IMG/VR virus record: IMGVR_UViG_3300035670_010555 | Coordinates: 105,855-169,854 of that record | Strand: one strand, 5' to 3' | Length of the DNA: 64,000 nt | DNA from: a virus | Notes under the pieces: model-generated | The model's database searches: none | What the model was told of the DNA's origin: nothing | Seen by the model: the letters and a program-made list of their open reading frames with translations, nothing else | In this document: positions 8,621 to 62,465 of the stretch, one piece after another | Numbering within the stretch: position 1 is the first letter of the stretch | Layout: every line of letters starts with the position of its first letter | Program-made: the position numbers and the translations under genes

Positions 8621-9898
8621 TTATGGTCTTGGAATTCCCAAATCTCTATAAAGTTGGTCATAATCATCATCGTCATCACCTTCAGAACCTTCTTCTCCTT
8701 TGAAATCATCATACTCACTCTTTGACTGTTGAGCTTGTTTCATGATTTCTTTGAATTTTGCAGTTGCCTTTCTTACTTTCGATTCATCTTCCGAAATTGC
8801 ATTACCAATGATATCTAAAAATTCTTTAGCTTCTGTCTTGTAAAGAATTGAATAAAACCAAGGTACCAATCCTTTGTTTTCATCATCGAACATCTCGTCA
8901 GGTAACGCAAACCTTATTTTTTCTACAATTTCAGGCCCAATTCTAAGTTGCATCGGTTCGTTTGATAAAACGTCCGTCACACCTCTAACTTGTTGAGACA
9001 TTTCAGGGTCTTCAGGTAATCCGTGTCTTGCGATAGATTCCTCTAACCCTTTGATTATTTCGTGACACAAAATTGGGAATATTAAACCTTCCGCAACAAT
9101 TTTTGTATCAGGTTCATCTTCACCTTCTCCACCCTCTTCTTCGTCTTCATCTTTATTTTCTAACTTAACTTTTCCAGCAACACCTCTACCTGTTTGAGAC
9201 ATCATTTCAATCATTTGTTCCATAGAAAAATACATGAAATCATTGATTGACATAATTTTCAAATAAGCAGGGTATAATTGTGGGTCAATTTCATCCAACC
9301 TTTCTTTAATTTCAGGTTTTTGAAAAATATAATGTCCCTTTTTTGCCGCCCCTTGAACAAGAGCGTTAATCATGTTTCTTTTATGAATTTCCAATTCCAT
9401 TACTTCTTCATCGGTCAAATCTTCAACATCAAACGATGGGATTTCAGGGGATTCTTCATCTTCCTTTTTCTTTGGTTTAGTAGCCTGCATTCTGAAATCC
9501 GAAATATTAATAGGTGATCTATTCAATAATGCCTCAATCGTAAACCAATCAGCAGGAACTTGTGTTTCTTCTAAACATGCGTCGATTGCGAGTTGTTCTA
9601 ATTCTTCTCTATGCCGGCCTTCGATTCTTGTTATTCCTGGAACTATACTCATCATTTCTTGAAAAAGCATTCCTTGAACCTGTTGAGAACTAATATCTTG
9701 CACACCAGTCACTTGCTTCAACTTATCTGCAACTTTTCCGAATCTCGAACTTACCAATCTTTGAACATCCGCTGCCCCCTTTTTCATTGCAGGATTAGTT
9801 GCATACAAACTTTCAGGACTTCCCAATTTTCTTTCTAATCTTGGGTCCATTCTTTCGGGTCTATCCCCGTAATTTATTTGTTCTTTAATCTTCGCCAT
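8621..9898 (-). CDS. Conserved structural-block protein of unknown function
   Basis: A 425-residue acidic protein directly upstream of the terminase gene. It has a charged N-terminus, a helical middle and a very acidic, Gly/Asp-rich C-terminus ending in YRDLGIPRP. No motif assigns a role. A virion or packaging function is inferred only from its tight placement (21-nt gap) in the head operon. Confidence 0.65.
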   Translation of the reverse strand: MAKIKEQINYGDRPERMDPRLERKLGSPESLYATNPAMKKGAADVQRLVSSRFGKVADKLKQVTGVQDISSQQVQGMLFQEMMSIVPGITRIEGRHREELEQLAIDACLEETQVPADWFTIEALLNRSPINISDFRMQATKPKKKEDEESPEIPSFDVEDLTDEEVMELEIHKRNMINALVQGAAKKGHYIFQKPEIKERLDEIDPQLYPAYLKIMSINDFMYFSMEQMIEMMSQTGRGVAGKVKLENKDEDEEEGGEGEDEPDTKIVAEGLIFPILCHEIIKGLEESIARHGLPEDPEMSQQVRGVTDVLSNEPMQLRIGPEIVEKIRFALPDEMFDDENKGLVPWFYSILYKTEAKEFLDIIGNAISEDESKVRKATAKFKEIMKQAQQSKSEYDDFKGEEGSEGDDDDDYDQLYRDLGIPRP

Positions 9899-9899
9899 T

Positions 9900-10787
9900 T
9901 TATTTATTCAATAAATTTAAGATAACATCAATCACTTCTTGTTTTGCGTCTTCGGGAGAAATTCTTCCCGCTTTTGGGTCAATTTGTTCTCCCGGTCTTG
10001 GATTTTTTCCTGGATGTGCAGGTCTTGTCCGAGGTTTGGTATCAGGTTTAGTAATTGGTTTAGTCGGTGCAGTTGTTGGTTCTGCGGCTTTAGGGTCTAT
10101 TTGTTCTCCTGGTCTTGGATTTTTTCCTGGATGTGCAGGTCTTGTCCGAGGTTTGGTATCTGGTTTAGTTGTAGGTTTTACAGGCGCCGTCAGAGGCGAA
10201 TTTGCTTCTGAAAGATATTTCAATAAGTCACCTTTGGTAATTCTCGGAGGTAAGTTTCTTTCCACGATTTTTGTAATTTCTGATTCTATAAACAAAGATA
10301 CAGGATTTTTTCCTTCTTCCAACTGTTTTTTTACAGATTTTACACATCTTTCAAACTTTCTTGTTTTCTTCGGTCCAAGTTGTGCGTGGCAAATTGCCCA
10401 AGGATTTTTTTCTTGTTCCTCACTCATTCCCATCATTTTTCTATTATCGTCCGAATCATCGTCCATTCCATCAGGAGCCATATCGTTTGCGTCGTGTGGA
10501 GCGTCTTGTCCTGTCAAACTTTGTAAAGCATCAGCCCCCAAAGCGTTTTTATCATCCACGTCATCAGTCTCGGTTTCTTTCATTTCACCGTCCTTTTCAT
10601 AAACCTCAAAAGGTTTTTTCTGACTTTTTAGAGTATTGATAGTCCCCGCATCATCTTTAGACACCATTGTGACTTCATTAACAAGTTTGGAGTGTAAGAT
10701 ACTGATTTGAGATTCTGTTAGTTTACCAACAGTTTTCGCAGATAATCCTTTTTCAATTAATTCGAGGGCTTTTTTATTAATTTTCAT
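9900..10787 (-). CDS. Protein with repeated Pro/Lys-rich linker
   Basis: A 295-residue protein with a helical N-terminus (KALELIEKGLSAKTV), an acidic middle with a small CHAQLG...KTRKFERCV segment, and a C-terminal region made of two near-identical 39-residue Pro/Lys/Arg-rich units ending in GKNPRPGEQIDPKA. Such linkers usually connect domains in virion proteins. It overlaps the upstream gene by 11 nt, indicating coupling. No known domain recognised. Confidence 0.6.
   Translation of the reverse strand: MKINKKALELIEKGLSAKTVGKLTESQISILHSKLVNEVTMVSKDDAGTINTLKSQKKPFEVYEKDGEMKETETDDVDDKNALGADALQSLTGQDAPHDANDMAPDGMDDDSDDNRKMMGMSEEQEKNPWAICHAQLGPKKTRKFERCVKSVKKQLEEGKNPVSLFIESEITKIVERNLPPRITKGDLLKYLSEANSPLTAPVKPTTKPDTKPRTRPAHPGKNPRPGEQIDPKAAEPTTAPTKPITKPDTKPRTRPAHPGKNPRPGEQIDPKAGRISPEDAKQEVIDVILNLLNK
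9976..10168 (-). repeat. 117-bp spaced direct repeat encoding the Pro-rich linker
   Basis: Two copies (9976-10051 and 10093-10168) of a roughly 76-bp sequence recur with a 117-bp (39-codon) period and only about three differences. The near identity at silent sites indicates recent duplication or gene conversion. Confidence 0.8.
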
Positions 10788-11172
10788 AAACTACTTTTTT
10801 TTCGAATTCTAATATCAAATCTCTTTCGTAGAGTTTGTCTTTTATTTGTTGTTCGGTCATTCCAAATCTGAAAACCATTCTTTTATGATTTTCATGTTCT
10901 TCGATTTCCCAGGCTAATGCAACCACATCGTCGATTGCATCTTCCATACAAAAAAAATCGGAGTTCTGAATCAATTCCAATTTTACATCAGTATTTCTCA
11001 GAACTCCTACCTTTTTAATATGATGTAATTCTGGAGGCCCAGGATAACCATTAGATGGTCTACTTTCCCAAGAATCTCCCCAAACATCAAGACTATCAGA
11101 GAAAATGAATTCGTAAAGATTGTCTCCCTTATAATTGGGACCTAAACCATTTACGTATATCAAATAACTCAT
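10777..11172 (-). CDS. Conserved hypothetical phage protein
   Basis: A 131-residue protein starting MSYLIYVNGLGPNYKGDNLYEFIFSD-like. It is rich in aromatic and acidic residues and contains a WGDSWESRP motif followed by a PPELHHIKKVGVL segment. It overlaps both neighbours (4 nt with the gene at 11169, 11 nt with the gene at 10787), so the three are translationally coupled. I do not recognise a functional family. Confidence 0.65.
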   Translation of the reverse strand: MSYLIYVNGLGPNYKGDNLYEFIFSDSLDVWGDSWESRPSNGYPGPPELHHIKKVGVLRNTDVKLELIQNSDFFCMEDAIDDVVALAWEIEEHENHKRMVFRFGMTEQQIKDKLYERDLILEFEKKVVYEN

Positions 11173-12374
11173 ACTAATAATCCTTCAGGTGATATTTTTA
11201 CTTGTTTTCCTTTATTTTCAAATACTAAGTTTTTCTTATTTGTTACTCCAACAATTTTTGCTGAAGAATTTTCTTCTAAGAATTTTTTAGCAGATAATTC
11301 TTGTTCAATAGTTTCACTTAATTTTACAACTTCTTTCATTTGTTTTCTAACTTCAGAAGTTGATGTACTTTTTTCCTTACTTTCAAGAATTTCTTTTTTC
11401 GTAATTTCAAAATATTTAGAAATTACTTTTTCAATTTTGGATTCTCCAAAAATACTATCGATGATGGCACCATTTCCATATCCGCCTTCTTCCATTTCAT
11501 ATCCCTCAACAGGAACGTCCATATCAGCTTGAATGTCTTCAACTTCACTATCATCAGTCATATCTAATCCATCCATGTCATCACCACCCAAATCTTCAGA
11601 TTCTTCATCAAATTTAGACAGTATATCTTCTCTATCCTCTTCAGATAATGACTTAAGGTCTAATGAAGATAATACCATGTTAATAACATACTTTATATCC
11701 TCAGAAGTCATTGGTTCACGACTATCTAAAGTTCTAATTTTTTGAGTCAGTTTTCCAGTTAACTTTTGAATTGTTTTGAAAGATACCTGTTCTTCTTCTC
11801 CAGGAGTTTCAACATCCATAGATATGTCAGTATCGACTTCTCCTTCAGGACCCATGTCTTCCATACCCATATCGATATTCAACTCATCTTCTCCCGCTGG
11901 CATTTCATCACTTGGAGATGCTGGCAAAGATGGTGCAGGAACTGCTGGTGGTGTTGCAGGTACATCAGATGCTGGCATTGGTTCTGCTGCTGGTTTAGGA
12001 GTTTTTAACGTGAATCTTTTTTGTTCTCCGTATAAAGAAACTTCCTCTTCGTTTTCATTGATTCTGTTCAACTCTCCAGCGACTAAATTTAATCTTTTGA
12101 ATGCCTGAGAATATGAAGAATAGTATTTTCTATTTTTCATTGGCTCAATATAATCAGTCTCAGATTCTGAAATGGTTTTCTTGATGATATAACCCTGTCT
12201 TTCTTTAACTATCTCATATTGGTTACCATCCGCTAAAGAAATAGAGTATTCACTTCTCGCGGTCTCATTAATATTAGATGGAATTACTTCGTTAAAACGA
12301 GCAATTTCCATAATTCTTTTTATTTTATCTTGTCCAGTTAATTTTTCACTGCCAAGTGGTTTCAAATCTCCCAT
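11169..12374 (-). CDS. Acidic virion-associated protein with Ala/Pro linker
   Basis: A 401-residue protein. It has an N-terminal alpha/beta part (to about residue 125), an Ala/Pro/Ser-rich linker (about 130-165), a very acidic stretch, two helical segments, and a C-terminal piece of beta character (NKKNLVFENKGKQVKISPEG). The layout resembles the scaffold-like and 41-kb acidic proteins in this window, suggesting a shared virion role. This is inference from composition and operon position. Confidence 0.6.
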   Translation of the reverse strand: MGDLKPLGSEKLTGQDKIKRIMEIARFNEVIPSNINETARSEYSISLADGNQYEIVKERQGYIIKKTISESETDYIEPMKNRKYYSSYSQAFKRLNLVAGELNRINENEEEVSLYGEQKRFTLKTPKPAAEPMPASDVPATPPAVPAPSLPASPSDEMPAGEDELNIDMGMEDMGPEGEVDTDISMDVETPGEEEQVSFKTIQKLTGKLTQKIRTLDSREPMTSEDIKYVINMVLSSLDLKSLSEEDREDILSKFDEESEDLGGDDMDGLDMTDDSEVEDIQADMDVPVEGYEMEEGGYGNGAIIDSIFGESKIEKVISKYFEITKKEILESKEKSTSTSEVRKQMKEVVKLSETIEQELSAKKFLEENSSAKIVGVTNKKNLVFENKGKQVKISPEGLLV

Positions 12375-12403
12375 ATTACGATTTATTTATATTTTTTGTT
12401 TTT

Positions 12404-13651
12404 TTAATTATTTAATCCTTGAAATCCTCCTAAAGATATTGCATTTAATTGAACTATTGTTACATTCCCATTTTCATCTGTCATTTCTTGGTATGGAACA
12501 GTTGAACCAGCTGGAGCGGTTCCTCCACTAAATGACCCTAACATATCAATAGTATATTGGTATTGTTGATTAACCTCAATAGTATAATCAGGTGTCACAC
12601 TCGGAGTAGGTGTTGCGGTTGGAGTTGATGCCGGAGTCCCCGTTGGTGTCGGAGTTGACCCTGCAGTGCCTGTTGGTGATGCGGTAATACTCGGTGTTGG
12701 TGAATTAGTTGCAGTATTTGTTGGAGTTGACGTTTGAGTTGTAGTCACACTTGGTGTTGGAGTGGTGGTTGAAGTTGTTGTATTAGTAGGTGTTTGAGTT
12801 TGTGTCGCAGTATTAGTAGGTGTTTGAGTTGTGGTTGGTGTTGGTGTTACTTCCGCAGTTCCTGTTTGAGTTGGTGTCGGTGTTTGTGTAGATGTTGTAG
12901 TCGGAGTTGGAGTATTAGAGGCGGTAGGCGTTGGAGTAATGTCTCCAAGACACTCAACACAAGTATTCCATGGTCCGTTGAAAATAGTAACAGTTGCTGC
13001 TAATGGAGTTTCAATTCCGTTAACAACAGTATAACATTGATGACTACCATCCGGTAATGATAAGTCATATATTTTATCATTTATTAAACTACCTATAAAC
13101 TTGGCATAAAACGCATCTCCTCCTGAACATGGTGTTATAATATAATATGTAAACGGTAGTGGAGATTTCGTTGGTGTAACCGTATTAGTCGGTGTAACTG
13201 TAGGTGTGGATGTGTTTGTTGCCGTTACAGTCGCAGTTGGGGTATTAGTTGCGGTATTCGTCGGAGTTGCAGTATTTGTTGGTGTCACAGTTGGAGTTGC
13301 GGTATTCGTTGCGGTTTGAGTATTTGTTGGTGTATGAGTATTAGTCGGAGTCGCGGTATTTGTTGGAGTTATAGTATTTGTTGGAGTTTGTGTTGGTGTT
13401 GCGGTATTAGATGCGGTAGGAGTTGGAGTAACATCTCCAAGACACTCAATACAATTATCCCATGGCCCATTAAATATTGTTGCAGTCGCGGCTAAAGGAG
13501 TGTCAAAACCAGGTCCAATAGAATAACATCCGTTAGAACCTCCTCCGATGATAAGGTCGTAGATTTTACCTACAATGAGATTTTCTTCCGACTTTATGTA
13601 TAAAGTATTAGAAGAATTACAAGAAGACGCAATATAATAATTAAAAGCCAT
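12404..13651 (-). CDS. Virion surface or fibre-like protein with Thr/Pro repeats
   Basis: A 415-residue protein made of two copies of a small Cys-containing domain (residues about 3-75 and 167-240, each ending near FNGPW-NC-ECLGD), each followed by a long Thr/Pro/Asn/Ala repeat (TPTNTATPT type). A C-terminal beta region completes it. The repeat is mucin-like and could be glycosylated. A related Thr/Pro stretch occurs in the protein at 61386, so both may be exposed on the virion. A TATTTAT box lies 14 nt upstream. Confidence 0.65.
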   Translation of the reverse strand: MAFNYYIASSCNSSNTLYIKSEENLIVGKIYDLIIGGGSNGCYSIGPGFDTPLAATATIFNGPWDNCIECLGDVTPTPTASNTATPTQTPTNTITPTNTATPTNTHTPTNTQTATNTATPTVTPTNTATPTNTATNTPTATVTATNTSTPTVTPTNTVTPTKSPLPFTYYIITPCSGGDAFYAKFIGSLINDKIYDLSLPDGSHQCYTVVNGIETPLAATVTIFNGPWNTCVECLGDITPTPTASNTPTPTTTSTQTPTPTQTGTAEVTPTPTTTQTPTNTATQTQTPTNTTTSTTTPTPSVTTTQTSTPTNTATNSPTPSITASPTGTAGSTPTPTGTPASTPTATPTPSVTPDYTIEVNQQYQYTIDMLGSFSGGTAPAGSTVPYQEMTDENGNVTIVQLNAISLGGFQGLNN

Positions 13652-50955: not shown

Positions 50956-51573
50956 TTATTCCTTATTAAATTTAATCTTCCAATATACCCCTCCCATTAT
51001 GTATGGAGTGAAACTACCTGTTACCCCATCAAAAGTTCTATTTGCAACACCTCCACCAATTTGAAATATTTTATCGTCTTTGGTTTTCAATAATACACTT
51101 GTACCTAGTGAATTAACCCAATCTTGGTGACTTAAAGCCCCATTCAATCCAATATAAACTTGGTTCCTAACTTTCGGTGGTTCAGGTACAGGTTCCCTAA
51201 CTATCTTGGGTTTGACATTTGCGGTAAACTTTCTTGAAACAACATTATTTTGTGAAATGGTGTCAAATAAATATATAAACCCCTGATTATTATTCAACGT
51301 TATTGTATCCTGTACGAAATTTTTCAAGTAAAAATTTTTGAGAATGAATGCGGTGTCAACTATTGGAGTCGGTGCGGGTACTTCAACAATTTTCTCCACT
51401 TCAACCTCGTATGGTACTTCGACCTCCACTTCATAAATAACTTCTTGAGGTATTGTATCATAAATTAATTTTTCTTCTATTTCAATTTGTGGAGGGACGA
51501 AAAATTGTAAGAATATTATTATGCCCACCATTATGAGTATTATTATGTGTCTAATATCAAATATCTTTTTCAT
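50956..51573 (-). CDS. Membrane-anchored protein of the exported-protein cluster
   Basis: A 205-residue protein with an N-terminal membrane helix (10-27), a Val/Glu-rich stalk of VEVEVPYEVEVEKIVEVP repeats, a Pro-rich segment and a C-terminal beta-hairpin region (GLNGAL..., YIMGGVYWKIKF) like a short outer-membrane strand set. It follows the beta-barrel gene by 4 nt and probably spans the periplasm. Function unknown. Confidence 0.55.
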   Translation of the reverse strand: MKKIFDIRHIIILIMVGIIIFLQFFVPPQIEIEEKLIYDTIPQEVIYEVEVEVPYEVEVEKIVEVPAPTPIVDTAFILKNFYLKNFVQDTITLNNNQGFIYLFDTISQNNVVSRKFTANVKPKIVREPVPEPPKVRNQVYIGLNGALSHQDWVNSLGTSVLLKTKDDKIFQIGGGVANRTFDGVTGSFTPYIMGGVYWKIKFNKE

Positions 51574-51577
51574 ATCG

Positions 51578-52897
51578 TTATAGGATTAATCTTGATCCAA
51601 TCAAGAAGTTACTTAAGATTGGGGAACCTGATGCTCCCAATGCTCTGTAGTTTAGGCTCAGACCGAATCTTTTACTAATTCGGTAATCAAATGAGGAACC
51701 AACCAAAAATGAAAATTGTCTATTAACCGTCGTTTCTCTTATTTTGGGGTTATATGATATTGGTGAATTCATAAGAAAAACCTGTGGTGACAATGTAATT
51801 TTTGAATTTACGGTATATGGTTTTGTCCAAAACACAACTGCGGAAGTTGAGAGAGATAAGTTAAATACCGATTTCTTTTCAGAATCTTTTAACAATAAAG
51901 TAATTACACCAACGTTATATCCATAGGTACCGTATTTTTCACTTGGTTTAATATTCGTATATCCAACTAACCCCATATAATTTCCTTCCAAGTAGGCGCC
52001 TGTAACTGAATACGAATGAATCCGATTCAACTTACCATCTTGAAAGTCCATCTTGGTATATCCTCCACCTACTGCAAATTGATTTAATGTACTCCAAATC
52101 ATTGCATTTGCACTCCAAGATTCGTTTCCTGCCAACGATGATTGGCTCACTCCGAATGATGCGATTACACTATATTTCAAATCAGGTCCTTGTGCGGTTG
52201 TCAAATCAGACGCAACCAACATTGGATTTACGGGGGCTGCTTTCTTTTTTTCACCTTTACCTTTTTCATCTGAACTTTCATCCCCACTTTCACTTGAATC
52301 TCCTCCTTCGGATCCACCTTCTTCTGAACTACCTTCACTGGAATTCGATTCACTTGAACTTGATTCACTTGAACTTGATTCTCCCGTACTATTTCCCGAA
52401 CTTGTTTCACTCGATGAGGACTGTGATGATGAACTCGAACTTGTTGAGGAAGAAGAGGATGATGTTGTGGAAGAAGCTGCAGAGGACGCAGAAGAAGAAG
52501 CCGCTGATGATGCTGAAGATGATGCCGCTGAGGAAGCTGCTGATGACGCAGCGGAGGATGCTGCTGAAGAGGCGGCGGCTGATGCGGCATTTGCTGCGGC
52601 TTGTGATACTGCTTGTGTGACAGTTTGGGTTACTACCTCATTTGCCGGACATGGAGTGGAAAAAATTCCATTAACCCACATTGTGACTTCTCCTGAAATA
52701 AATTGTTGGTATGTAAATGTTTTGGATTTGTTTCTGACGATGACTAATATACCACTGTTTGATTGTATCGGTATAGAAACAACATATGTTTTTGAATCAC
52801 AGGGGTCAATGTAAGTTTGAGTTACTACTTGCCCCTGTGATTCGTGGTAAAATAATACCACAAAAAATAACATTAAAAATATTTTTAGACTTTTCAA
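51578..52897 (-). CDS. Outer-membrane beta-barrel protein with Ser/Ala-rich linker
   Basis: A 439-residue protein: signal peptide (to about 22), a small domain with two Cys (to about 85), an Ala/Ser repeat region (about 95-165), an acidic Ser/Glu/Gly stretch (about 165-215) and a C-terminal beta-barrel (about 230-439) ending in an alternating hydrophobic strand, SRLIL. The low-complexity part uses a varied codon mix, so it is kept for its protein sequence. Likely a surface protein on the infected cell; a virion role is less likely because of the signal peptide. Confidence 0.65.
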   Translation of the reverse strand: MKSLKIFLMLFFVVLFYHESQGQVVTQTYIDPCDSKTYVVSIPIQSNSGILVIVRNKSKTFTYQQFISGEVTMWVNGIFSTPCPANEVVTQTVTQAVSQAAANAASAAASSAASSAASSAASSAASSSASSAASSSASSAASSTTSSSSSSTSSSSSSQSSSSETSSGNSTGESSSSESSSSESNSSEGSSEEGGSEGGDSSESGDESSDEKGKGEKKKAAPVNPMLVASDLTTAQGPDLKYSVIASFGVSQSSLAGNESWSANAMIWSTLNQFAVGGGYTKMDFQDGKLNRIHSYSVTGAYLEGNYMGLVGYTNIKPSEKYGTYGYNVGVITLLLKDSEKKSVFNLSLSTSAVVFWTKPYTVNSKITLSPQVFLMNSPISYNPKIRETTVNRQFSFLVGSSFDYRISKRFGLSLNYRALGASGSPILSNFLIGSRLIL

Positions 52898-52919
52898 TTA
52901 TCATCGGTTTCAAAATATT

Positions 52920-53639
52920 TTATTCTGTGAATATTCCTTTTTTAATCATTCTATCCAAAATTCTGGCACAAGCAATGTCGAGCGCTTTTTTGGTCGCAAT
53001 AGATATTGTAGATTGATTGAATTTGACTGGGTCAACTGTAGCATCTGATAAAAGTGTTAGTTCTCTTGTCGTTACTGCTTCACCCAAACCTGATGCTCCA
53101 AAAACAACACCTGTTTCCGCATTTGTGAATCTAACTTGAAGGCCAATACGTGTCACCATCATATTTTTAACTCCGTCTTTTAGATTCACAGTTTCGTCCT
53201 CAGATACAGAATAATCATAACATTCTATTGTTACAAAATATTCCGCCAAGTTAATTTTACCAAAGCCATCTAATTGATTTTCAGAAATACCCGCTTGTGA
53301 TGCTTGGAATTGTTTGACCATTCGGTTTTTGATTTCTGTCTTGTCTTCAGTGAATTTGAATCTGTTAAGATTCTCAAGATATTCCATCGAGATGTTTGCA
53401 ACCCCCAAACCAACTCTTTTTTCTTTTAACTCAGGATACATCTCATACATTTCATCAGATATACCAGCCTTTAATATTTGAATTGGTATTTGTTTTCCTT
53501 CATAATCCATAAATTGACTAATATCAATTGCAGTTTCGAATGATGCCTTGTATTGTTCTGTTTTTGTGGAACCAACTGTTTGAGCAAACAAACCGTTACT
53601 CATAATCAATGCCGATGATAATATCAATAAATTTTTCAT
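52920..53639 (-). CDS. CsgG-like exported protein
   Basis: The start is placed at 53639 (MKNLLIL). The 239 residues begin with a signal peptide ending FAQ. The mature part resembles the CsgG/LptE-like periplasmic fold: GVANISMEYL, EYFVTIECYDYSV, MVTRIGLQVRFTNAETGVVFGAS, and a C-terminal helix IATKKALDIACARILDRM. CsgG forms the curli secretion pore. The lipobox Cys of E. coli CsgG is absent, so pore formation is doubtful. It belongs with the exported proteins around it. Confidence 0.5.
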   Translation of the reverse strand: MKNLLILSSALIMSNGLFAQTVGSTKTEQYKASFETAIDISQFMDYEGKQIPIQILKAGISDEMYEMYPELKEKRVGLGVANISMEYLENLNRFKFTEDKTEIKNRMVKQFQASQAGISENQLDGFGKINLAEYFVTIECYDYSVSEDETVNLKDGVKNMMVTRIGLQVRFTNAETGVVFGASGLGEAVTTRELTLLSDATVDPVKFNQSTISIATKKALDIACARILDRMIKKGIFTE

Positions 53640-53706
53640 ATTTACCATTGTTTTATTGTTTCAAAAAACGTACTCATTATTTTGTTCCAAATCTTTTTCC
53701 ACTTCA

Positions 53707-54045
53707 TTATTCTTCTATTGATTCACTGTTAGACCCCAAAGTGTTGCTCAAAGATACACCATCCTCTTCATCCATTTTTTGAACCAACATTTTATCTTTA
53801 TCAGTATCAGAGAACCAATAATCAATAATTTTACCATAAGAACCAATAAAGGCTCCCAACATAAGAAGTAGTAATTCTTTCCATTCTTGTCCTACCGTAG
53901 TATTCATATGTATCGATATTACAATACCCACCGTAAGTAATAAGAATGTTAATAACACAATTGCAGTTATTAACCATCTTCGTTTCATCATAGAATTCAG
54001 TAGTTCCCTGAATCCCGTGTTCATTGATTGATTAATTTGTGACAT
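53707..54045 (-). CDS. Small membrane protein
   Basis: A 112-residue protein with two adjacent membrane helices (about 24-46 and 55-68) and an acidic, Ser-rich tail. The layout suits a holin-like or accessory membrane protein. No family recognised. Confidence 0.5.
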   Translation of the reverse strand: MSQINQSMNTGFRELLNSMMKRRWLITAIVLLTFLLLTVGIVISIHMNTTVGQEWKELLLLMLGAFIGSYGKIIDYWFSDTDKDKMLVQKMDEEDGVSLSNTLGSNSESIEE

Positions 54046-54069
54046 ACTTTTTATTTTAATACGTGTCTT

Positions 54070-54231
54070 TTATGGTCTATGTGGCCAAGCCCATCCTTTA
54101 TTCTTACCTCTTAAAAGTAGATAAGTCGCTCCTCCGAAGAATATTGTTAAAAACAAAATTGGAGATTTAATTACAAATAAAGTTACCATCAACAACGTGA
54201 TGAGAACTAAAAAACTTAAAAATTGTTCCAT
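54070..54231 (-). CDS. Small two-helix membrane protein (53 residues)
   Basis: The frame from ATG 54231 encodes 53 residues: two hydrophobic helices (3-20 and 23-40) and a basic tail RGKNKGWAWPHRP. It lies between two similar small membrane genes in the same direction. Confidence 0.45.
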   Translation of the reverse strand: MEQFLSFLVLITLLMVTLFVIKSPILFLTIFFGGATYLLLRGKNKGWAWPHRP

Positions 54232-54236
54232 AATTT

Positions 54237-54557
54237 TTACCATTTTGGAGCGGTTTCTTTGAACTCATCTCCTTCTTTTTTCTTAGGTTTATCTGTCGCC
54301 GCAGGTTTTGCTGATTCACTTGATTTTTCTCTAATAATTACAGTCTCTTTACCACCAGACTGTTGTTGATTGTTATTATTGATAATAATCGGAGTTTGTT
54401 GTTGTACAGGTGCGGCAACTTCTTCGTCTCCGCCATTTATTAATTTATTTGTAACAACTCCGCCAGCTCCCAACACAGCAGTAGTTAACAATCCGATGAT
54501 TGTTTTCTTTAATCCTGACCAAGTTCCGTCATTATGGTCTTCTGTTTCTTCACTCAT
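54237..54557 (-). CDS. Membrane-anchored Gln/Asn-rich protein
   Basis: A 106-residue protein with an acidic start, one membrane helix (about 18-38) and a hydrophilic tail with an Asn/Gln-rich patch and a Lys-rich end. No family recognised. Confidence 0.5.
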   Translation of the reverse strand: MSEETEDHNDGTWSGLKKTIIGLLTTAVLGAGGVVTNKLINGGDEEVAAPVQQQTPIIINNNNQQQSGGKETVIIREKSSESAKPAATDKPKKKEGDEFKETAPKW

Positions 54558-54572
54558 ATTATTTTAATTTAT

Positions 54573-54935
54573 TTAGTTTATTATTATTGGGTATTTAACT
54601 TCTTTGCCCGAGATATCTATGAAAACCATATCATAATATCCTTGTTGTATCTTATTCAAATCATACACCTTATGTGTAATTGTTTCTGTTGCAGTAAATC
54701 CTTCTTTTGTTATTGGAGTCATCGATCCGAATGGAATAAATTGAATCGAATATTTTGCACCGATTGTTGTATTGAATTCTACAATAACTACATTTTCGCT
54801 TTGGAAAACTGATTTAATAGACGTGGATGATGATTCTTTACCCAATTCGATAATTGGCATCTCATCATAATATGGGTTATTACACCCTTGTAATAAAACT
54901 CCTATAACTCCTAATACAATTATTATTTTTTTCAT
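54573..54935 (-). CDS. Lipoprotein of the exported-protein cluster
   Basis: A 120-residue protein with a lipobox LLQGC (Cys18) and a beta-sandwich-like mature part (VVIVEFNTTIGAKYSIQFIPFG, Fn3-like). It is 1 nt downstream of the cohesin-like gene, so the two are likely co-produced. Confidence 0.6.
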   Translation of the reverse strand: MKKIIIVLGVIGVLLQGCNNPYYDEMPIIELGKESSSTSIKSVFQSENVVIVEFNTTIGAKYSIQFIPFGSMTPITKEGFTATETITHKVYDLNKIQQGYYDMVFIDISGKEVKYPIIIN

Positions 54936-54936
54936 T

Positions 54937-57051
54937 TTAGAAATTGTTATATCCTGTTAATTTTATTTGATTAGTATTCAAATTAATACCTAATTGATTT
55001 CCCTTCACCGCACTTGCGTCCATAGTTGAAGAAACTTTAATTGAGGTCAAGATGTCAACACCATTACCAATGGTTGAGAACTTTAATTTGAAAGGAGTTA
55101 AGTTTCCATTCAGAGGAGTTTTTTCACCTTGGTCTATGGCACCAAATTTAATTTTACCATTAACGGGATTTACAAATAAGTACCATGTATTTGGTAAATT
55201 TGGAGACAACTCTTCGAATTTTATCTTTGTTGGGTCATATTCAAACTCAAATTGTAGTCCTGTGACCAAATTTCCTTTTGTATTTATGTTAACGGGAATT
55301 TCGATACTATTTGAGGTTACAGTAACATTTGATAGATTAACATCTATGGATGGTACTGTATTAGGAGTGTTTATAAATGACTCCGTAGACATATATCTAA
55401 ATGCCGTGTTTGTTTTCAAACTATTTGATGCTCTACTCACTACGGATGCAACCCCATTGTTACTTACAACCACCTGAGATGAATGAGATCTATTGACGTC
55501 TCCCCACAAAAGATATTTCAAGTCCAATGTTGTGTTTGTTCCAATAGTCCCTGTTTTAATATAAGTTTTAGGGTAATCAAAAGAATTCCAATTGGAAGTT
55601 GTAATTGCTCCCCACGAATGAGATGGTGAGTTATTGAATATAAATTCTGATCTTATGCCGAAGTCAGGACCTCCATTAATATTTCTTATATATGGAGTAT
55701 AAGTTGATGTACCTATCGAAGGTATGCTAGATGGTATTCTAAAAGTTGCCCAAGTTGCATCTTTAGAAACAAATTCTACAGGTCCGACATACAAATCAAA
55801 TAACTGAAGGGACTTTATATTATCAGGTAAAATGTTTGTATTATCGAATTCTCTCAAGTCTATTAATATTCTTGACACATTTTGAGAATAATGGTTTGGT
55901 GTTAATACCGCCCATTCAACTTGTCCCGCGATAGTAGTTGCGTCAGTTGACATCCAAGTAGGGACACTGATATATCCACCACTACCTTGTGTATATCCAT
56001 CTGGAACTGTAACTAAAGCATCAATTCCGACAACTTGTGCTAATAATTTTGGTAAATCACCAGCATCGATTGTTTTATTTCTATTGATGTCTACGGCATA
56101 TAATGATTGTCCTGAATTTATTGTTTGTCCTTTACTACCATCCAATCCCATAGTTAAAAATTCACCCTGTGCTGAAGTGAAGTCGGAGATTGTAATGGAA
56201 CCATTATAAATCGTATTTAATTTATCTAATTCGTGCATTACCGAAACTTCATAAACTTTATTTTCTAATAATGATGCTTGGTTAATGTCAACGTTTCCGT
56301 TTGACAACACATTAAATTGTTGACCCACGTTTGTTAATGTATCTCTAAAAGATACTCTTAGGTTTGTTAAATTTAGTAAATTAGAATTTACATCAACTTT
56401 TGCAGTAACTAATTTTCCCGTATTTTGATTTAGTATTACATCGGTTGAAAGGGGTGAATCCATAATTGTTGGGATTATTGACCCTGAGCCATTCCAAGCC
56501 GCAACAAAATTCAATTTGACTGGATTAAATGAATTCGAGGTTGATGATTGTTTGACCCTAAATCTCATAATCAAAAATTGCGATGGAGATGTACCGTTTA
56601 CTCCGGTCGAGCTGGCCCATGTTAATATAATTCTCAAAATAGAATTTCCTCCATTTGGATTGAAGGAATAATTCAGTCCACTGGTAAATCTTGTACTACC
56701 ATTTGTGTTTGTTGTATTTCCAGCATAGGTATATCCGGGATAATTTTGCCAAGATAATTGCGGGTTAGAATTTTGTGGGAGAATACCTCCACTATCAACG
56801 GTTCCAGTATGATTTATGGAAACTAAGTCAAAATTGGCAATATCAAACTGTACATCAAATAATAATTGTCTTGTTTGTGTATCATTATTACCGTTTGCCA
56901 ATACAATAACATCAAACTCGTCGCCTCTATCAATTACTTCACCATTCAAATCTGTGATTGTCCTTTCATCGGATAGATTAAATCTCATATTCGATTGTCC
57001 AAAAGAAGCGAATGACATTAATAAAAGTGATACTAATAATATTTTTTTCAT
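54937..57051 (-). CDS. Secreted cohesin/dockerin-like protein
   Basis: The start at 57051 follows the upstream stop by 1 nt. The 704-residue protein has a signal peptide (to about 19, SFGQ), an N-terminal cohesin-like beta sandwich, a dockerin-like calcium motif VDINRNKTIDAGDLPKLL (about 325-342), a middle beta domain, and a C-terminal cohesin-like domain (about 575-690: LQFEFEYDPTKIKFEEL, IKFGAIDQG, LTPFKLKF). Cohesin and dockerin pairs assemble extracellular complexes. Both kinds in one polypeptide could self-assemble. Such a protein is unexpected in a phage. Confidence 0.65.
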   Translation of the reverse strand: MKKILLVSLLLMSFASFGQSNMRFNLSDERTITDLNGEVIDRGDEFDVIVLANGNNDTQTRQLLFDVQFDIANFDLVSINHTGTVDSGGILPQNSNPQLSWQNYPGYTYAGNTTNTNGSTRFTSGLNYSFNPNGGNSILRIILTWASSTGVNGTSPSQFLIMRFRVKQSSTSNSFNPVKLNFVAAWNGSGSIIPTIMDSPLSTDVILNQNTGKLVTAKVDVNSNLLNLTNLRVSFRDTLTNVGQQFNVLSNGNVDINQASLLENKVYEVSVMHELDKLNTIYNGSITISDFTSAQGEFLTMGLDGSKGQTINSGQSLYAVDINRNKTIDAGDLPKLLAQVVGIDALVTVPDGYTQGSGGYISVPTWMSTDATTIAGQVEWAVLTPNHYSQNVSRILIDLREFDNTNILPDNIKSLQLFDLYVGPVEFVSKDATWATFRIPSSIPSIGTSTYTPYIRNINGGPDFGIRSEFIFNNSPSHSWGAITTSNWNSFDYPKTYIKTGTIGTNTTLDLKYLLWGDVNRSHSSQVVVSNNGVASVVSRASNSLKTNTAFRYMSTESFINTPNTVPSIDVNLSNVTVTSNSIEIPVNINTKGNLVTGLQFEFEYDPTKIKFEELSPNLPNTWYLFVNPVNGKIKFGAIDQGEKTPLNGNLTPFKLKFSTIGNGVDILTSIKVSSTMDASAVKGNQLGINLNTNQIKLTGYNNF

Positions 57052-57052
57052 T

Positions 57053-57547
57053 TTAGTTTGTTTCAAATAATTTAGTTACCAAGTTATCGCTCGCTTTCTT
57101 TAGAGCGTTACTTAATGATTGTTGATTGAAGTTTCCTCCACCGTCGACAATAAGAGTTGACATGGATATTTCGGAAGATTCTTCCTCCGCAATAACTTCC
57201 TTGACTTTTTTTCCATCGATTTTTAGAACTCCTTTCAATCTGATTACAACAGATTCTTTGTCTTTGTGAAATACAGAGACATTCGACTTGGTTTTTAATA
57301 CATCCAAGTAGATAATTTCAATAGATAATTTTTGATTGGAGTCGGGGTTTAGGTCGAAATTTTTTTCTTGTAAAAATTCCTCTGTGATGTTTCTCACACC
57401 GAATTCTAAATTTCGGTTTCCTGCGAGATTTCCTATTTGAATCTTGTTTACAACAGATTCAACCCATATTTCATTGGTAGTTTTTGTATTGTCGTGAGGC
57501 ATTATGGATAACATAATACTAGCCACGTATAGTAACAGTATTTTCAT
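57053..57547 (-). CDS. Exported protein, possible CsgG-cluster partner
   Basis: A 164-residue protein with an N-terminal signal-like hydrophobic segment (to about 17). The mature part alternates strands and helices (KLSIEIIYLDVLKTKSNVSVFH, ALKKASDNLVTKLFE) in the style of periplasmic proteins that work with CsgG-like exporters. It starts the exported-protein operon. Its start region is duplicated near 42.9 kb. Confidence 0.5.
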   Translation of the reverse strand: MKILLLYVASIMLSIMPHDNTKTTNEIWVESVVNKIQIGNLAGNRNLEFGVRNITEEFLQEKNFDLNPDSNQKLSIEIIYLDVLKTKSNVSVFHKDKESVVIRLKGVLKIDGKKVKEVIAEEESSEISMSTLIVDGGGNFNQQSLSNALKKASDNLVTKLFETN

Positions 57548-57670
57548 TCGATAGTATCTTGGTACTCATAAATATCACAAAATTTAATTTTGTCCTAAAT
57601 TTTTAGTTTGTGTCAAAGTGAATATCTTACTGTACTAAGACAATATTTATCAATATAAAAATAAATTACT

Positions 57671-58498
57671 ATGATACTAAAGAATGGGTCTAAAGGAGAA
57701 GACGTTAAAAAACTCCAAGTAAAATTAGGTTTGGGAACCGATGGCATATTCGGTTCTGGTACAGAAGCTGCGGTTAAAAAATGGCAAGCGGCTAATGGAT
57801 TAACTGCTGACGGTATTGTTGGTGAAGGTACTTGGACAAAGATGTTCGGAGAGAAGCAACTAATCACAGAGCCATCGACTCCAATCGTTAATGCAGGTCC
57901 TTTGAAGTTGGAAAATTTGAAGGGTCACATTCCTGATGTGGTACTTGCTCAGATTCCTGATTCTGCAAAGAAATTCAACATTTCAAATCCACTAAGATTG
58001 GCTCACTTTTTAGCTCAGTGTGGGCACGAATCTGCGGGATTCAAAGCAGTTCAAGAAAATCTTAACTATTCTGCTGATGGTTTGAAAAAAATATTTCCAA
58101 AATATTTTCCAGGAAATCTAGCAGAAGGTTACGCAAGAAACCCTGAAAAAATCGCTTCAAAAGTTTATGGAAGTAGAATGGGTAATGGAGATGAAACAAC
58201 AAAAGAAGGTTTCAAGTTTAGAGGTCGTGGATATATCCAATTGACAGGAAAGGATAACTATACCAGATTTGCCCAATTCATCGGTGAAGATACTGTATCT
58301 AATCCTGATTTAGTTGCAACAAAATACCCTTTGGCTTCAGCAGCATTTTTCTTTGACTCAAATAAATTGTGGGCAATTTGTGATAGGGGATCTGATGATG
58401 CAACAGTAACCGCAGTAACTAAAAGAGTTAATGGTGGTACAATCGGATTGGCCGATAGAATCAAACACTTCAAAGAGTATTTCGCACTTTTGAAATAA
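57671..58498 (+). CDS. Endolysin: peptidoglycan-binding domain plus GH19
   Basis: A 275-residue protein with an N-terminal PG_binding_1 repeat (about 5-58: GSKGEDVKKLQ, GTDGIFGSGTEAAVKKWQ) and a C-terminal GH19 chitinase/lysozyme-like domain (about 80-275). The catalytic Glu120 lies in CGHESAGF and the substrate motif is FRGRGYIQLTG. It has no signal peptide, so access to the wall needs a holin; a candidate lies at 61.1 kb. A TATTTAT box lies 20 nt upstream. Confidence 0.9.
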   Translation: MILKNGSKGEDVKKLQVKLGLGTDGIFGSGTEAAVKKWQAANGLTADGIVGEGTWTKMFGEKQLITEPSTPIVNAGPLKLENLKGHIPDVVLAQIPDSAKKFNISNPLRLAHFLAQCGHESAGFKAVQENLNYSADGLKKIFPKYFPGNLAEGYARNPEKIASKVYGSRMGNGDETTKEGFKFRGRGYIQLTGKDNYTRFAQFIGEDTVSNPDLVATKYPLASAAFFFDSNKLWAICDRGSDDATVTAVTKRVNGGTIGLADRIKHFKEYFALLK

Positions 58499-61057: not shown

Positions 61058-61309
61058 TTACTCTTCCACTTCTTCTTTTTTAGATTTATTAAGGAATTTA
61101 TCAACTGATCCAATTCCGAATGAACCTAAAACTAACCATAAGAAAGAATTAAAGATAAATTCATTTATCACTAAATCTTGTCCGAGGTAACCTGTTACAA
61201 TATCTGCAACTGCAAATATTATCATCATGATGAATGCCATGAATCCAACCACACTTTTTTCATTGATGGTGTTGCTGTCATTAAACAGCTGAGATAAGAA
61301 TTTTTTCAT
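61058..61309 (-). CDS. Holin-like two-helix membrane protein
   Basis: The start is placed at 61309 (MKKFLSQLF). The 83 residues have an N-terminal amphipathic part, two membrane helices (about 21-40 and 52-70) and a Lys/Glu-rich C-terminal tail, a class II holin layout. A holin would release the endolysin encoded at 57.7 kb. The assignment rests on topology and context only. Confidence 0.5.
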   Translation of the reverse strand: MKKFLSQLFNDSNTINEKSVVGFMAFIMMIIFAVADIVTGYLGQDLVINEFIFNSFLWLVLGSFGIGSVDKFLNKSKKEEVEE

Positions 61310-61385
61310 AGTATTTGGTAATTTACTTACCAATAAATATTATAAAAAATCGGGTATTGTAGTTGTCTTCGAAAAAAAATAGTTC

Positions 61386-62465
61386 TTAGTTGAAAGTAAC
61401 GCTGTGAACATGTGAATGGGAACCATAAAAAGTGTATCCAGCGGTTGCTCCACCAAATTGTATTGGTATTCCTGTTGTACCACCACTTGGCCAATTACCC
61501 AAACAAACTTTATTGACTGCGGTAACAAAAGGTAATCCACCGACAGTCGCGGTTCTATTATCCGCAAGTGATTTCACTGTTCTATAGAATGGGCCACTTG
61601 AATTTCCAATTAAGAAATAAGTATTTGCAGGAATCGTGACATTAGTATTTATGTTTGATGTTGTAAATACTCCGCCAGTATATGAACCACTTCTTACTGC
61701 ACTTAGTGTCAAAACACTACCCCAGTTACCTATCGTATTTATACTATTGGATATTGCGTAATACCATGTCCAACTATTAGTCCCTGAAGTATGAGGATTT
61801 AGTCCTATATTACCGGTTCCTGAGTTCATATCAATTTCTTGGTGAGCGTAATATAACTGCCAACAACCATTATTTGTATTAAATGCATCCGTCGTTGTAA
61901 TTCCATCTCTTGACGAATATGCGTCAAACAGAGTTCCTGTAGCATAAGCCACTTCAGTCCCTGTACCTCCCGTAACTGAACCTGAAGGTGTTGAAGGAGT
62001 CGGTGTTGGAGTTGTTGTCGATGTTGAAGTATTGGTTGGAGTTACTGTAACAGTAGGAGTATTTGTTGGGGTTGGAGTATTCGTATTGGTTGGTGTTGGT
62101 GAAGGCGTTATTGAAGGTACAAAAGATGTCCAATATCCATTTGCATTTAGCCAAATTACCGCCGATGACCCGTCGGAAAAACTTTGCCCAAAAATACTAT
62201 TAGTGTATTCAACAAATGATTGCTCCGTTAACAAAGGACTTCTGAAAAAACCTACTGAGGCGGTAACTCCTGATAATGGAGAAGGTTGTGTGTTACCCGA
62301 AACCGATTGAGCAATTACATATCCCAACTCTTCATCAGGCCCATTCCAATATTGAGGAGTACTTGTAAATCCTGAAGTTGGGGTACCAATGGATAAGTCA
62401 CCAATTTGTTCCGTTCCTGATATTTGTGGTCCAGGGTTATATGCGAATGGTCTTGCGGTTGCCAT
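61386..62465 (-). CDS. Fibre or decoration protein with Thr/Pro linker
   Basis: A 359-residue protein with an N-terminal beta domain (about 1-115), a Thr/Pro/Asn linker (about 118-165, TPTNTPTVTVTPTNT type) and a C-terminal beta domain ending GSHSHVHSVTFN, whose His repeats are typical of phage fibre tips. The linker resembles that of the protein at 12404. A TATTTAT box lies 11 nt before the start. Confidence 0.65.
   Translation of the reverse strand: MATARPFAYNPGPQISGTEQIGDLSIGTPTSGFTSTPQYWNGPDEELGYVIAQSVSGNTQPSPLSGVTASVGFFRSPLLTEQSFVEYTNSIFGQSFSDGSSAVIWLNANGYWTSFVPSITPSPTPTNTNTPTPTNTPTVTVTPTNTSTSTTTPTPTPSTPSGSVTGGTGTEVAYATGTLFDAYSSRDGITTTDAFNTNNGCWQLYYAHQEIDMNSGTGNIGLNPHTSGTNSWTWYYAISNSINTIGNWGSVLTLSAVRSGSYTGGVFTTSNINTNVTIPANTYFLIGNSSGPFYRTVKSLADNRTATVGGLPFVTAVNKVCLGNWPSGGTTGIPIQFGGATAGYTFYGSHSHVHSVTFN

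Follow-up and report, generated by a model that had tools for sequence, protein, structure and literature searches.

Why do phages carry genes that resemble outer-membrane exporters? How phages remodel the outer surface of their hosts is poorly understood, and the phage curli clusters published so far have no tested function. A locus that raises this question lies in the final 64 kb (64,000 nucleotides, hereafter the window) of a 169,854-base viral record, IMGVR_UViG_3300035670_010555. The start of the record carries T4-like capsid, portal, protease and terminase genes and the phage encodes 17 tRNAs; the source is a T4-like, Bacteroidota-infecting phage. As a preliminary description of the window had reported, a tightly spaced leftward cluster of genes for secreted proteins is present, consisting of nine open reading frames (ORFs), all on the minus strand, from 57547 to 50956 with intergenic gaps of -7 to 58 nt. 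Nearly all nine products are exported or membrane proteins with signal peptides or anchors, and the lipoprotein and anchors named in that description were also recovered; lipobox, signal-peptide and transmembrane (TM) calls throughout are a reading of the sequence combined with simple hydropathy. The cohesin domain was the only part of the cluster recognised by Pfam sequence profiles, and NCBIfam and most PHROG searches of the cluster proteins returned nothing useful. The features are listed in leftward order.

57671..58498, plus strand: endolysin (PG_binding_1 and GH19), divergent neighbour with its own TATTTAT motif
57569..57575 (to a base or two), minus strand: TATTTAT motif, candidate late promoter, about 27 nt 5′ of the first start codon
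57053..57547, minus strand: 164-aa exported protein, ORF without a family match
54937..57066, minus strand: 709-aa secreted cohesin protein (Pfam Cohesin, E 4.3e-6)
54573..54935, minus strand: 120-aa lipoprotein with an LLQGC lipobox by sequence reading, no family match
54237..54557, minus strand: 106-aa protein with one TM segment and a Gln/Asn-rich stretch (hydropathy, conservation)
54070..54243, minus strand: 57-aa hydrophobic membrane protein (hydropathy)
53707..54045, minus strand: 112-aa two-TM protein (hydropathy), holin-like in topology only
52920..53648, minus strand: 242-aa exported protein with a predicted CsgG fold (AlphaFold2 and Foldseek)
51578..52897, minus strand: 439-aa exported protein with FapF-like architecture (predicted structure)
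50956..51573, minus strand: 205-aa anchored protein (hydropathy), no database match

We favor the interpretation that the cluster is a phage-encoded module for outer-membrane export and surface display, probably used late in infection, and we put the probability of this reading at about 0.5. The infected cell would then probably acquire a phage-made surface coat or pore.

The 242-aa protein was modeled with AlphaFold2 together with 28 relatives (pLDDT 73, pTM 0.69). When the model was compared to the PDB with Foldseek, the top 19 matches were all CsgG, with E-values from 1.7e-6 to 7e-5 and TM-scores of 0.34-0.51, followed by HpaA-like, GNA1162, FlgT, LptE and PelC structures, which have a similar fold. 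The top viral structural match was an annotated phage CsgG. The model therefore supports a CsgG fold, the outcome of the AlphaFold check that had been proposed for this protein. Sequence comparison gave a different answer, with no CsgG match in Pfam, among PDB sequences or in hhalign profile-profile comparison, and the signal peptide is ordinary, ending in ...LFAQ without a lipobox cysteine. On these grounds we rejected the idea that the protein is a true CsgG by sequence, and the earlier label "CsgG-like" is supported for the fold and not for membership of the sequence family. The model has a single long hairpin at residues 137-176 with conserved acidic residues, and its second region is short and of low confidence; the membrane hairpins are doubtful, seemingly more acidic than a CsgG-type barrel would allow. 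Pfam searches also found zero matches to CsgE, CsgF or curlin among the cluster proteins. The preliminary description had suggested that the infected cell gains a new surface layer or export pore. The surface or export part of that suggestion is the best-supported inference, given the folds, the cohesin domain and the sister-phage tags described below, while a working CsgG-type pore is hypothetical, given the lack of a lipid anchor, the doubtful hairpins and the missing CsgE, CsgF and curlin matches.

The adjacent 439-aa protein is predicted to consist of a signal peptide, a small N-terminal domain with two invariant cysteines, a helix at residues 86-128, a disordered Ser/Ala linker and a 12-stranded barrel. 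The outer-membrane barrel with a long Ser/Ala linker described previously was thus borne out, as 12 long predicted strands follow a 112-residue low-confidence stretch (108-219) and outer-membrane barrels make up the PDB matches. The best of these include chains of FapF, alongside NanC, KdgM and others. The predicted structure resembles other 12-stranded barrels as closely as it does FapF. Among relatives the linker spans 90-303 residues and is either Ser-Ala-Lys-Glu or Ser-Gly-Thr-Asn in composition, differing by clade. The barrel protein gave no match in cultured phages when used as the query. Several relatives of the locus hold extra barrel-like genes.

The 709-aa protein (704 aa when started at the ATG at 57051) has a C-terminal Cohesin domain (PF00963; E 4.3e-6; 27.4 bits, where the cut-off is 24.1). 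It had been described as a cohesin/dockerin protein; the cohesin half is sound, and the dockerin half is weak, consisting of a single F-hand-like motif at residue 326 with no Pfam match to Dockerin (PF00404), for which relatives score E 0.0044-0.0068, below the cut-off. Some relatives bear a C-type lectin domain or a type IX secretion system (T9SS) sorting domain, a tag that moves Bacteroidota proteins to the cell surface. The sorting domain (PF18962) is absent from the window's protein. In the sister clade, which includes the cultured Flavobacterium phage Immutovirus, it forms the C-terminus of the cohesin protein (E 2.4e-8 for Immutovirus gp015; 1.9e-11, 5.6e-11, 2.1e-9 and 2.1e-7 for others), and whole-record searches of four large phages found one clear T9SS tag in each, that of the cohesin protein. 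In the window's clade the cohesin protein is untagged and is followed by one or two lipoprotein genes, such that the 120-aa lipoprotein occupies the place in the gene order held by the tag in the sister clade. Among loci that cover the interval from the cohesin gene through the 106-aa gene, which are not independent of one another, 79 have only the tag, 64 only the lipoprotein, none both and one neither; in that last locus (L100) the cohesin region is split over two reading frames. Two loci, L061 and L067, are tagged and lack the lipoprotein although the CsgG-like tree nests them inside the window's clade, which means that at least two tag/lipoprotein changes are needed.

Could the lipoprotein be a split-off sorting tag? 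Some relatives' lipoproteins weakly resemble the tag domain, with single-pass HMM E-values of 2e-4 to 0.04 (reversed sequences gave no match) and E 0.012-0.019 against the Pfam T9SS domain, or 0.002 in a whole-record search. Iterated HMM searches brought tag-like lipoproteins down to E 8e-12, but iteration can drift. The window's own 120-aa lipoprotein shows no resemblance to the tag domain. Because the single-pass and Pfam scores are weak and the window's lipoprotein has no match, we keep this idea only as a lead about the group, not as a result for the window. In Bacteroidota, a lipoprotein export signal (LES), C-x-K-(D/E)2-x, follows the lipid cysteine (PMC5080379). Of 29 distinct tag-like lipoproteins of relatives, 19 have two acidic residues between positions +3 and +6, reminiscent of the LES, and the window's lipoprotein, which reads CNNPYYDEM, does not have the LES motif.

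The remaining proteins of the cluster are small. Many relatives of the 164-aa protein are about 217 aa long with an N-terminal TM anchor, and a short stretch of the protein is weakly similar to the 242-aa protein. The 106-aa TM gene is a core gene, present in 152/164 loci. The 205-aa protein combines an N-terminal membrane anchor, a Val/Glu/Pro spacer and a beta-rich C-terminal part and possibly bridges both membranes; its gene is confined to the window's subclade (39 loci) and its product matched nothing in the databases, cultured phages included. Many relatives of the 112-aa protein (L038:2847-3548, L058:7040-7633 and others) have a C-terminal extension of DxDGDG calcium-binding-like repeats and a CxH...CxxC tail. 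A relative of the 112-aa protein used as a query had no match in cultured phages.

A search for the cluster in other phages, which had also been proposed, was productive. Relatives of the 242-aa protein are encoded on 478 IMG/VR contigs and those of the 164-aa protein on 476, a search from Immutovirus returned 113 contigs that may overlap with the 478, and Immutovirus itself carries a relative of the CsgG-like gene as gp017 and the barrel gene as gp018. Across 164 loci, many of them near-copies and many cut by contig ends, 163 contain the N-terminal domain of the barrel protein, which in 157 lies no more than 1.5 kb from the CsgG-like gene, and 140 contain the cohesin gene. Since the gene set recurs in a conserved arrangement across these loci, the cluster is not a chance grouping. 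A scan of 84,980 prokaryote species genomes produced only two matching contigs, both inside metagenome-assembled genomes and both phage-like in gene content. On this evidence the family belongs to phages, and we rejected recent capture from bacteria. Additional genes accompany some loci. In L025, a 201,940-base phage contig, a TonB-dependent receptor (Plug, OMP_b-brl_3, CarbopepD_reg_2; 9019-11493) and a 398-aa lipoprotein (11493-12686) lie between the CsgG-like and barrel genes. A gene for a DNA/RNA non-specific endonuclease, possibly a periplasmic enzyme, is nearby in L058:11770-12369 (Pfam Endonuclease_NS with a signal peptide) and L082:6205-6783, and its Immutovirus counterpart is annotated NUC1.

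Timing is suggested by a short motif. TATTTAT occurs in 25/70 upstream regions of the genome where 4.1 would be expected, and 48/104 sites in the record are no more than 60 nt from where an ORF of at least 60 codons begins, against 25/104 for the reverse complement. The motif precedes the portal, prohead protease, tail sheath, tail tube, head-completion, endolysin and 82-aa holin-like genes as well as the first cluster gene; it is absent 5′ of nrdA, nrdB, dnaB and phoH, and also of the capsid gene and one baseplate gene. The simplest reading of this association with gene class is that TATTTAT is likely a late-promoter element. Its sharing by structural genes, endolysin and cluster suggests that the cluster is expressed late.

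How does the module relate to known systems? The preliminary description took such assemblies to be known from bacteria and not from phages, a statement that does not survive the literature: CsgG/CsgF clusters have been published in pelagiphages and an OM43 phage, reportedly with the full set including curlin repeats (PMC7029224, PMC9004378, PMC9599517), and phage proteins with a T9SS sorting domain have been published as well (PMC7468147, PMC6949934). The type VIII (curli) clusters of HTVC008M, Melnitz and HTVC023P-type phages resemble the module in having a CsgG-fold protein within a multigene envelope cluster that is apparently kept as a unit in lytic marine phages, with a putative function. 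In those phages, however, CsgG is recognizable by sequence and accompanied by CsgF (plus the reported curlin repeats, FecR and a cyclase), and the cluster originates from Alphaproteobacteria (PMC9599517). The module here is found in Bacteroidota phages and has no CsgG sequence match and no CsgF or curlin match, with a cohesin protein, a lipoprotein and a FapF-like barrel instead. Likewise, the 242-aa protein shares its predicted fold with the CsgG curli channel (4uv2, 4uv3, 6l7a), but differs in lacking the lipobox, the sequence match and the CsgE/F/A partners, and in its doubtful membrane hairpins. FapF, the exporter of Pseudomonas functional amyloid (5o65), has a periplasmic trimeric coiled coil, a disordered linker and a 12-stranded barrel (PMC5557850). 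The 439-aa protein is predicted to have the order coiled coil, disordered linker and barrel, but its family adds the Cys-bearing N-terminal domain, and the linker of 90-303 residues compares with 42 in FapF; Pfam and NCBIfam found neither a FapF sequence match nor the Fap partners (FapA-E, C39 protease) in the cluster. We do not class the module as a member of CsgG or of FapF. T9SS-tagged proteins of Cryophage and crAss-BACON lineages are similar in that a phage protein bears a host sorting domain (PMC7468147, PMC6949934), yet those tags are reported on variable or structural-region genes, whereas here the tag is on a conserved core gene of an envelope module or is absent, with a lipoprotein gene instead. 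Both CsgG/CsgF clusters and T9SS cargo thus have precedents in phages, and what may be new is this combination, a variant of phage-encoded outer-membrane exporter clusters; our literature search, with most subscription papers and preprints outside its coverage, found no prior description. The module joins two amyloid-exporter architectures and host type IX secretion in one conserved unit on hundreds of viral contigs.

PelC of Pel polysaccharide export offers a weaker structural match to the 242-aa protein, with a CsgG-like fold. In that system a soluble PelC ring works underneath a barrel supplied by another protein, PelB, and the 242-aa/439-aa pair might work by analogy, although no sequence relation is seen and the cargo here would be protein. 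We hypothesize that the 242-aa protein, exported by Sec, forms a CsgG/PelC-type ring where the outer membrane faces the periplasm. The 439-aa protein would place its 12-stranded barrel in the outer membrane, with the coiled coil reaching into the periplasm on its disordered tether, as in FapF, and ring and barrel, encoded by adjacent genes, may act jointly as a polypeptide exit. The main product would be the cohesin-bearing protein, ending on the cell surface. In the sister phages it would arrive there through its own tag for the host T9SS, and in the window's clade it might leave via the ring/barrel exit or the adjacent lipoprotein. We speculate that the resulting coat makes infected cells or debris adhesive or masked. 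Candidate benefits are clumping of neighbors, exclusion of competitors or fewer progeny lost to debris; clumping of neighbors, or 'sibling capture', has been proposed for pelagiphages (PMC7029224).

Export and display is supported by the CsgG fold, the FapF-like 12-stranded barrel and the cohesin domain, by the near-universal barrel gene close to the CsgG-like gene, and by the sister-clade tag on the cohesin protein, the sole one in four genomes. Further support comes from 143 loci in which tag and lipoprotein exclude each other, L061/L067 marking a second switch, from the export-signal-like N-termini of many relatives' lipoproteins and from the signal peptides and anchors on nearly all cluster proteins. 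Against it are the acidic hairpins, the lack of any evident amyloid cargo in unfolded form (curlin, CsgE and CsgF all unmatched), the untagged cohesin protein of the window, the endolysin and holin-like genes nearby and a barrel match unspecific to FapF. A more elaborate version, which we regard as rather improbable, is a hybrid secretion system specific to phages and distinct from types I-IX. In it, a FapF-like tethered barrel and a ring of CsgG fold would together place a cohesin adhesin on the surface of the infected cell, and the cargo could switch routes, relying either on the host's type IX tag or on a dedicated lipoprotein to which the tag's function has passed.

The main rival is a lysis module, in which holin-like two-TM proteins, the GH19 endolysin, the 205-aa protein as a spanin-like bridge and an outer-membrane pore break the envelope. 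The endolysin gene and the cluster diverge from one intergenic region and have TATTTAT in common, the endolysin gene lies inside the cluster in L063, L065 and L163, two-TM genes sit within the cluster, and the CsgGF of the OM43 phage Melnitz has been proposed to time lysis (PMC9004378). In Immutovirus, however, an endolysin and a Pfam-recognized holin are about 28 kb from the cluster (another endolysin-annotated gene is about 8 kb away), which weakens lysis as a universal role. Further, none of the cluster's TM proteins, including the 112-aa protein, matches a holin family, no role in lysis is known for proteins with cohesin, lectin or T9SS sorting domains, and the 205-aa protein is restricted to one subclade. 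We consider this explanation rather unlikely.

Two other roles are less likely still. Tail or baseplate adhesins could account for the cohesin and lectin domains, which adhesive virion proteins can also hold, and for the putative late motif common to the cluster and the structural genes. Sec signal peptides, a lipobox and an outer-membrane barrel count against this, though, and in Immutovirus the structural genes occupy 78-160 kb, away from the cluster; from the signal peptides and gene position we rejected a virion role as very unlikely. Phage-added outer-membrane channels and binding proteins might alternatively feed the infected cell, as proposed for pelagiphage CsgG (PMC7029224), and the TonB-dependent receptor and lipoprotein between the CsgG-like and barrel genes of L025 and L024, along with the extra barrel-like genes, point in this direction. 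The receptor is nonetheless seen only in the L025/L024 lineage, and uptake is a poor fit with the cohesin domain, the T9SS tag and the apparent late timing, making it very unlikely as the general function. Cultured Immutovirus carries the module, with most of its genes annotated hypothetical, so the question of why phages carry outer-membrane exporters can be put to direct test in this lytic phage and its laboratory host, Flavobacterium sp. LMO8.

Three further frames deserve mention. The product encoded at 61386-62465 (minus strand) of the window is 359 aa long and contains an extended run of Thr/Pro repeats, and its gene has TATTTAT upstream. The 82-aa holin-like membrane protein at 61058-61333 (minus strand) is 44% identical to Immutovirus gp192, which is endolysin-adjacent there. 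Finally, a 21-codon frame at 53643-53707 (minus strand), in the gap 5′ of the CsgG-like gene, encodes MKWKKIWNKIMSTFFETIKQW, and the equivalent position of another locus (L018:6412-6475) encodes the similar peptide MNWKKIWFEIKVALFETIQLW; the peptide is basic and amphipathic and is known in these two loci only.
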